Source: Herminiimonas contaminans (GTDB lineage: Bacteria; Pseudomonadota; Gammaproteobacteria; Burkholderiales; Burkholderiaceae_D). Taken from it: a DNA stretch of 64,000 bases. A program made the position numbers and the translations under genes. Below the pieces are notes generated by a model. It made no database searches. It had not been told where the DNA came from and worked only from the letters and a program-made list of their open reading frames with translations. Positions 23,767 to 25,708 of the stretch are shown one piece after another (within the stretch, counting starts at the first letter, position 1; each line of letters opens with the position of its first letter). Location: positions 62,001 to 126,000 of the forward strand of contig NZ_JADOEL010000008.1 in NCBI RefSeq assembly GCF_015645465.1, in the 5' to 3' direction.

Positions 23767-24814
<1,048 letters not shown>

Positions 24815-24820
24815 ACTTAA

Positions 24821-24983
24821 AAACGAAACGGAAAAAATAAATGAAACTTTTTTGCCGCATGCTCATCCTAGTAGCAGATGCTTTGCATCTCCCGCTTCTC
24901 CTCCCTGAGCGGGGCCAAGTCGCACAAGCGCGATATGGCGTTATTGCCCTGGAGATACTCCCCTTTCTCCAGGGCTTTTTTTT
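24821..24983 (+). ncRNA. Candidate small regulatory RNA with anti-Shine-Dalgarno loop
   Basis: The hemB-engB gap has no gene on the plus strand, yet ends in a textbook plus-strand terminator: GCCCTGGAG (24946-24954), CTCCAGGGC (24967-24975), then eight T. On the minus strand the hairpin has no T-run, so it does not serve engB. Before it lie hairpin 1, AGATGC-TTT-GCATCT (24876-24890), and hairpin 2, CCCGCT (24891-24896) / AGCGGG (24908-24913), whose 11-nt loop TCTCCTCCCTG can pair with AGGAGG ribosome-binding sites. The terminator loop (ACTCCCC) is C-rich too. The 5' end is uncertain: near 24821 from the putative promoter, possibly later. Spot 42 and ErsA also lie next to engB homologues in gammaproteobacteria; homology is not shown. 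The short open frames across it look non-coding. Confidence 0.7.
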
Positions 24984-25000: not shown

Positions 25001-25708
25001 TCAGACATCGCCTTCGGCCGAGCCGTTCGATTCTTCCTCTGCTTCCTCATTCAATCCCAGCAAGTCTATGATCTTGTCAGTGGCTTCGTCGAGGCCGCTG
25101 CGTTTGAGCGACGAGAACAATTGCGCCGTGAATGGAAACGGTTGTCCATTTTCATCGACATAGCTACTCAATATGGTACGTGCGGTGCGCAAGGCATTGG
25201 CGGAATCGTTGCGATTGAGTTTGTCTGATTTTGTTAACAGGCAGTGGATGGGCTTGCCGGTAGGAGCAAACCATTCCAGCATCTGGATATCGAGCTCAGT
25301 GAACGGGCGGCGCGAATCGACGATCAGGATCAGCGCGGCCAGCTGTTCGCGGCGCTGGACGTAGTCGCCCAGCAGTTCTTGCCAGTGCAATTTGGCCGAG
25401 CCGGATACTTCGGCGTAGCCATAGCCTGGCAAGTCGACCAGCAGGGCGCGGATCTCATCGACCCGGGTTTCATCCTTGCGGTGCTGTCCGACGTGGGCGC
25501 CGCCGATGGAAAAATAATTGATATGCTGTGTGCGGCCCGGAGTTTTGGACGCAAATGCCAGTTTTTTCTGGTTGCACAGTATATTGATCGCGGTTGATTT
25601 ACCGGCGTTGGAGCGGCCGGCAAATGCAATCTCGGGAACTTGCGTTTTTGGCAAGTCACGGAGATGATTGACCGTGGTGAAGAAGCGGGCTTGCCAAAGT
25701 AGGGACAT
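25001..25708 (-). CDS. engB: Ribosome biogenesis GTPase EngB (YsxC/YihA)
   Basis: A 235-residue GTPase required for 50S assembly. G1 GRSNAGKS (about 31-38), G3 [11 protein letters not shown] and G4 TKSD are intact. The C-terminus ends in an acidic tail ([16 protein letters not shown]). It is transcribed toward hemB; the candidate small RNA lies between and runs in the opposite direction. A cytochrome c4 gene is divergent 161 bases away. Confidence 0.96.

Follow-up and report, generated by a model that had tools for sequence, protein, structure and literature searches.

The gap between hemB and engB of Herminiimonas contaminans encodes a predicted trans-acting small RNA, which is an ordinary member of the catalogued Rfam family RF02837 (anti-hemB) and hence not new; what is likely new is the sigma-E-type box upstream of it, the occurrence of its homologues outside the order, and a link of the family to ErsA of Pseudomonas and sX13 of Xanthomonas. 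We consider it fairly probable that anti-hemB is an RNA of about 108 nt with its own ECF/sigma-E-type promoter, likely served by RpoE, that it masks ribosome-binding sites with the aid of Hfq, and that it belongs to an engB/polA-linked lineage together with ErsA and, probably, sX13. The structure, the conservation, the upstream box, the synteny and the model links were observed in this work, and the literature on homologues covers transcription and Hfq binding for ncS04 of Burkholderia cenocepacia, sigma-22 control for ErsA, and repression through C-rich loops for sX13.

Identity and parts of the RNA

The window, by which we mean the whole analysed stretch of 64 kb, has RF02837 as its sole Rfam match at curated cut-offs, at 24888-24983 of the plus strand (60.3 bits against a cut-off of 49.5, model positions 1-81 of 81). 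The initial annotation had called this RNA unannotated, which is thereby corrected; its prediction of a trans-acting kind of small RNA gains from the family, for which transcription of the Burkholderia cenocepacia member, ncS04, is published together with a report of Hfq binding. This transcript measures 105 nt, with its 3' end determined by RACE and dRNA-seq; it carries the label anti-hemB and has the gene orientation <- -> <-, and anti-hemB stands among the known RNAs listed in a 2012 paper. The RNA described here shares with ncS04 and Burkholderia RNA 7 (RF02837) the full-length match over the cut-off, the gene orientation and a similar length. It lies in the engB-hemB gap, on the strand opposite to both genes, and is divergent from hemB (23767-24780, minus strand; PF00490, NF006762), from whose start its own start is separated by about 96 nt, with transcription directed away from hemB. 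The convergent neighbour engB (yihA/ysxC; 25001-25708, minus strand; TIGR03598) ends 17 nt past the RNA, which on its other side has hemB and not polA as a neighbour.

It was first proposed that the RNA occupies 24821-24983. It does lie there, but the first part of this interval is upstream sequence with a promoter-like box (24843-24870), and the RNA probably begins at about 24876. The predicted transcript (24876-24983, plus strand) opens with hairpin 1 (24876-24890, AGATGC-TTT-GCATCT), followed by hairpin 2 (24891-24913, CCCGCT-TCTCCTCCCTG-AGCGGG, with the loop TCTCCTCCCTG at 24897-24907). Both are the perfect hairpins that had been pointed out upstream of the terminator. Hairpin 3 (24914-24939), which was absent from that earlier list, is variable in length and sequence; it is given by the minimum-free-energy fold, and the RF02837 consensus has a hairpin at this place. 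The Rho-independent terminator (24946-24983) was correctly recognised as well; it has a perfectly paired stem of 10 bp, a C-rich loop of 10 nt (24946-24975) and then eight T (24976-24983) on the plus strand. It is missing from a generic terminator scan, whose upper limit of 8 nt for the loop is the probable reason. Folding of the predicted 108-nt RNA yields -51 kcal/mol, where shuffled sequences average -29.4 (z -6.7) and 0 of 200 shuffles do as well.

The RF02837 model begins after hairpin 1, and neither hairpin 1 nor the promoter-like box is found in the model or in the parts of the literature available to us. Over the 53 sequences of the covariation alignment (taken from 73 prepared references, among which L065 was not included) all six pairs of hairpin 1 change on both sides. 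Its covariation score is 0.314 against 0.161 for shuffled alignments, of which 0 of 500 scored as high, and structures slid along the alignment reached at most 0.108; paired cells make up 97.0% under this structure and 88.1% after shuffling. Since hairpin 1 covaries in this way, the RNA probably runs over 24876-24983, beyond the part matched by Rfam. The upstream box ends about 5 nt 5' of hairpin 1, a distance that also suggests a start at about 24876 and a length of some 108 nt, similar to that of ncS04.

The stem of hairpin 2 hardly varies over the same 53 sequences, and covariation cannot test it. Its loop was proposed to expose an anti-Shine-Dalgarno sequence, and this proposal has held up: 67 of 73 loci have the loop core CCTCCCTGAGCGGG unchanged, a count somewhat favoured by the selection of these loci with the same seed, in which two mismatches were allowed. 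The sequence of hairpin 2, and not its fold alone, thus seems to be under constraint, as would be expected of a loop that pairs. Of the 73 loci, 69 have a terminator with a perfect stem, and its loop contains CCC in 60; this loop count replaces an earlier one of 63 of 73, which could include stem bases.

Conservation across the order

The initial annotation had looked to a covariance search for conservation of the RNA in relatives, and such a search bears it out. RF02837 is found over the cut-off in 70 of 100 genomes of the order, which we take to be Burkholderiales, the own one included, among them 13 of 13 of the own genus, and in 0 of 14 unrelated control genomes. At E<=0.001 the count in the order rises to 83 of 100, and 3 of the 14 controls match too, none over the cut-off; because of these weak control matches, and because some weak matches are RF02278 RNAs, our counts rest on the 70 genomes over the cut-off. 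The own genome has one RF02837 copy over the cut-off, and its second, weaker match (26.7 bits) is such an RF02278 RNA. This group of double-hairpin or toxic sRNAs (RF02278; ncS27; S17-like) resembles anti-hemB in its CU-rich anti-Shine-Dalgarno segments and in weak cross-matches to RF02837, but its model gives 15.1 bits in the window, below the cut-off of 50, and the two kinds occupy separate loci within the same genome. At the RF02278 locus of the own genome (L002, contig C7) there is a tandem pair, at 1280-1342 and 1497-1561, about 150 nt apart, and a Guanidine-II riboswitch match is located nearby on the other strand (889-935).

The 70 loci over the cut-off were fetched with at most 1.5 kb on either side; engB was present in 66, hemB in 62 and both in 60. 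Four loci are without engB, one of them (L037) near a contig end and one (L067) starting at a contig end, and the other two (L010 and L045) being copies elsewhere. These two copies, away from hemB and engB, keep the upstream box, and their neighbours, named by eye, are GroEL-like and Lon-like ORFs.

Nineteen genomes of the family that have no match over the cut-off were checked. In two of them HemB gave no match, in two others HemB is divergent and has no engB adjoining it, and four (L077, L080, L082, L091) keep a weaker copy of the RNA. The other 11 (L078, L079, L081, L083-L090) keep engB adjoining hemB; the estimated gaps range from an overlap up to 136 nt and do not exceed 74 nt in nine of these genomes. 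These short gaps between retained neighbours suggest that the RNA was lost in some genomes where the engB-hemB neighbourhood stayed.

A few loci stand outside particular tables: L066, where the seed was not found, and L081, L083 and L085-L087, whose seeds were chance ones with three mismatches and which were left out of the upstream tables. None of 117 stretches from a pattern-biased search entered any count.

The upstream promoter-like box

Of 74 homologous loci within the order (own locus included), 62 have, just upstream of hairpin 1, [G/A]AACT followed by TCNNA, where AACT was fixed by the search pattern used for this count; the spacing is 16 in 50 of these loci, 17 in 11 and 15 in one. 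In H. contaminans a -35-like element GAAACTT (24843-24849, plus strand) and a -10-like element TCCTA (24866-24870, plus strand; 16 nt 3' of AAACTT) may thus form an ECF/sigma-E-type promoter. In the genus the box takes the form GAAACTT-N16-TC(C/T)(T/C)A and tends to exceed its spacer in conservation, with one member shifted by a base. The pattern [GA]AACTT?-N15-18-TCNNA occurs in 61 of 71 upstream regions against about 1.5 expected from order-1 Markov shuffles, a comparison that is partly circular, as this looser pattern was read off the same loci. The own locus was left out of the 71 regions, and loci with N or with a short upstream part were left out both here and in the matrix test described below.

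The comparison with rpoE itself starts from an outside set. RpoE (TIGR02939, E<=1e-30) was found in 55 of 60 genomes, of which 30 loci were fetched and all but L097 used; in the 300 nt upstream of rpoE the form GAAC-N17/18-GTC occurs in 26 of 29 genomes against 0.63 expected. This same strict form is present in 10 of the 71 sRNA upstream regions against 0.61 expected, in every case within -63 to -54. It is likely, from this resemblance to the box upstream of rpoE, that the box of anti-hemB is of the ECF/sigma-E type.

Homologues outside the order and a possible relation to ErsA and sX13

In a class-wide draw of 140 genomes, 30 have an RF02837 match at E<=1e-7 and eight of these are over the cut-off; two of the 30 are from the own order. 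For the class-level set, 20 genomes were taken from the other 29, with 19 loci outside the order and one (L251) inside. Here engB was found in 13 loci, polA in 11, both in 8 and at least one of them in 16; all of these 16 are among the 19 outside-order loci, L251 having neither, and none of the 20 has hemB within reach. The strict rpoE-derived box is present in 13 of the 20 against 0.09 expected, the looser box also in 13 against 0.12 expected, and either form in 17. A model built from own-order sequences alone (R1) detects all 19 outside-order loci (E 1.1e-15 to 1.5e-4), which is a confirmation and not a discovery, as these loci had been chosen by RF02837. At L253 and L260 anti-hemB-like RNAs outside the order stand as tandem pairs. 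A further anti-hemB-like RNA was seen in the polA-engB gap of G253 (L284; 39.8 bits with the model R2 described below), and the ECF-box pattern was not found upstream of it on the strand of the RNA.

The published data on the RNAs that occupy the same neighbourhood in other bacteria are relevant here. ErsA is reported from the polA-engB gap of P. aeruginosa, with three stem-loops and a U-rich linker, under the control of AlgU/sigma-22, and its reported targets of repression are oprD and, with Hfq taking part, algC. The sX13 RNA of Xanthomonas is described as always downstream of polA, with three C-rich loops and with Hfq dispensable. Among the literature matches listed, mainly from non-subscription papers, there is none that links anti-hemB to sigma-E, ErsA or sX13.

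The initial annotation had compared the RNA to ErsA by its position only, and this comparison proved to be stronger than was then thought: the engB-adjacent locus and the likely type of promoter are in accord, as is a model match that is weak but significant. The ErsA promoter was seen in one genome, G230, the one genome in 370 with an RsmY match, which we took as a pseudomonad; the 3' flank of its polA has an RF01719 (ErsA) match of 121.3 bits preceded by GAACTT-N15-GTCATA, and its engB is located on another contig. The model R2, trained on nine own-order and 19 outside sequences from which ErsA, sX13 and the bridging loci had been excluded, detects ErsA at 22.9 bits (E 5.8e-4) and sX13 at 28.9 and 26.3 bits; its structure is poor (12 pairs) and its E-values are rough, and the best scores at noise level were 8.5 bits in control loci and 10.8 for a chance match in the 64-kb window. 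ErsA differs from anti-hemB in having three stem-loops and a U-rich linker, and RF01719 has no match up to E 10 in the stretch of the window (cut-off 50). For sX13 the likeness consists of the polA locus, the C-rich loops and the R2 matches; RF02232 gives 22.1 bits in the window (E 0.16) against a cut-off of 50, the TCNNA/GTC part of the box is absent from the two sX13 loci examined, and the dispensability of Hfq is a further difference. A locus of G237 may bridge the families. Its polA-engB gap (L273, 1501-2237, minus strand) has four sRNA copies in tandem, spaced 203-216 nt from start to start and each preceded by a GGAAC...GGTCTGA string; they score 35.9-41.8 bits with RF02837, and one copy gives also 48.3 bits with RF02232 (and 38.0 with ar14) and another 37.1 with RF01719, all below the curated cut-offs. 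ErsA would therefore be linked to anti-hemB by place, promoter and a weak but significant model match, and sX13, probably, by place and model, not by promoter.

Spot 42 had been named as another comparison. The part that stands is the shared locus: the order and orientation polA-sRNA-engB (yihA) around spf are the same as in several class-level loci. The model R2 finds no similarity in 40 kb of E. coli around spf, and Spot 42 is rejected as a homologue; a GAAC-N17-GTC string at spf was rejected as its promoter, as it ends 2 nt before the spf start, which is too close.

From these data it would be tempting to suggest that anti-hemB, ErsA and sX13 descend from one ancient RpoE-driven envelope-stress sRNA that stood beside engB/polA before the separation of beta- and gammaproteobacteria, with Spot 42 as a later or much-altered occupant of the place, and we hold this suggestion tentatively, at a little short of an even chance. 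MicA and RybB would be the enteric counterparts of such an RNA. The resemblance could instead be convergent, with unrelated sRNAs having in common a preferred locus, a terminator and loops rich in C. Several points speak for this: R1 does not find ErsA and gives sX13 only 13.6 and 12.1 bits, like a chance match of 13.5; R2 has a modest score for ErsA and rough E-values; other C-rich families score weakly too (ar14 and LhrC in the window, ar14 and Atu_C7 in related loci); and Spot 42 occupies the same locus with no model match. Against it, the locus, the promoter box (for ErsA) and the order of the elements agree, and the G237 gap has its four tandem copies with matches to RF02837, RF02232 or RF01719, although all below cut-offs. 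We find convergence rather unlikely on this balance. Because the bridging matches are below the cut-offs and the ErsA promoter comes from one genome, we have slightly lowered our confidence both in the common descent of the three RNAs and in the overall explanation given at the beginning, and slightly raised it in convergence and in the use of the box by another sigma factor.

Probable control and mode of action

In H. contaminans itself, RpoE control, the use of Hfq and the targets are predicted from the relations described above. Envelope stress would free RpoE, which would transcribe the anti-hemB RNA from its own ECF/sigma-E-type promoter; Hfq would bind the RNA; the C-rich loops of hairpin 2 and of the terminator would pair with G-rich ribosome-binding sites, and the messages masked in this way would be translated less. 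Anti-hemB would be the betaproteobacterial member of the engB/polA-linked lineage to which ErsA and, probably, sX13 belong.

It may be objected that the box is used by another sigma factor, either another ECF factor or sigma-70 with an activator, and that the RNA is constitutive or metabolic and does not answer to envelope stress. Such an objection finds support in the B. cenocepacia qPCR table, where ncS04 is unchanged in all seven conditions (PMC5688073); the same source describes a 20-min stress series, SDS included, as mostly without induction, and the promoter sequences of this species as largely uncharacterised. It is supported also by the weak fit of a weight matrix derived from the rpoE boxes, which at p<=0.05 recognises 10 of 72 sRNA loci against 6 of 146 coding controls, and which has its best match at the expected place in 36 of 72 loci against 22 by chance. 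The box of the own locus fails this matrix (p 0.535), though the box is conserved across loci, and we rejected the matrix as proof of RpoE control. On the other side, a sigma-70 scan found no site, which is a weak argument as 0.6 would be expected by chance; the box is retained over the order and also outside it, as suits a near-universal sigma factor, and RpoE, present in 55 of 60 genomes, is such a factor; and ErsA, with a similar box, is dependent on sigma-22 in print. Another sigma factor is in our judgement unlikely. The co-occurrence of RpoE with RF02837 was put aside as evidence, as too few genomes (5 of 60) are without RpoE: of the five without a TIGR02939 match, G025, G067 and G077 are also without RF02837 and G004 and G022 carry it, and other genomes without RF02837 do carry RpoE.

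A scan of the own genome with GAACTT-N15/16-GTCNNA gave four sites against 31 in a reversed control. Two of them (L247 and L249), of the form GAACTT-N16-GTCNNA, are located 42 and 85 nt upstream of ORFs with SIMPL and DsbC_N domains, the second falling within the preceding ORF; that these ORFs are candidate RpoE targets is suggestive only.

As to the predicted action of anti-hemB in trans, the step of masking is drawn by analogy from two sources. For repression by sX13, the C-rich motifs of the RNA and the G-rich ones of its targets were both reported as necessary, and the captured partners of two C/T-rich Bordetella sRNAs share a Shine-Dalgarno-like motif (PMC12235514). The complementarity of the loop of anti-hemB to ribosome-binding sites is seen directly, and a role in trans-acting masking is predicted from it. 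No exact target of any length came out of the search of the genome; the pattern GGGAGGAG-N3-13-ATG has six sites, against four in the reversed control, one of the six being the antisense of the sRNA itself, and of the other five GGGAGGAG sites one precedes a 346-aa ORF and one a 107-aa ORF. A role chiefly in cis on hemB, either as antisense RNA or as a divergent-promoter element, which would suit the Rfam name and the location of the RNA opposite to engB and hemB, where a long engB-hemB transcript would presumably overlap it, is highly improbable, as transcription starts about 96 nt from the hemB start and runs away from it, none of the 20 class-level loci (19 of them outside the order) has hemB in reach, and the L010 and L045 copies are located elsewhere.

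Meaning for the anti-hemB family

The literature found, as far as its available parts go, gives no regulator and no tested function for anti-hemB. The ECF-type box and the link to ErsA would provide this orphan family with a testable trigger, envelope stress, and with a testable mode of action.
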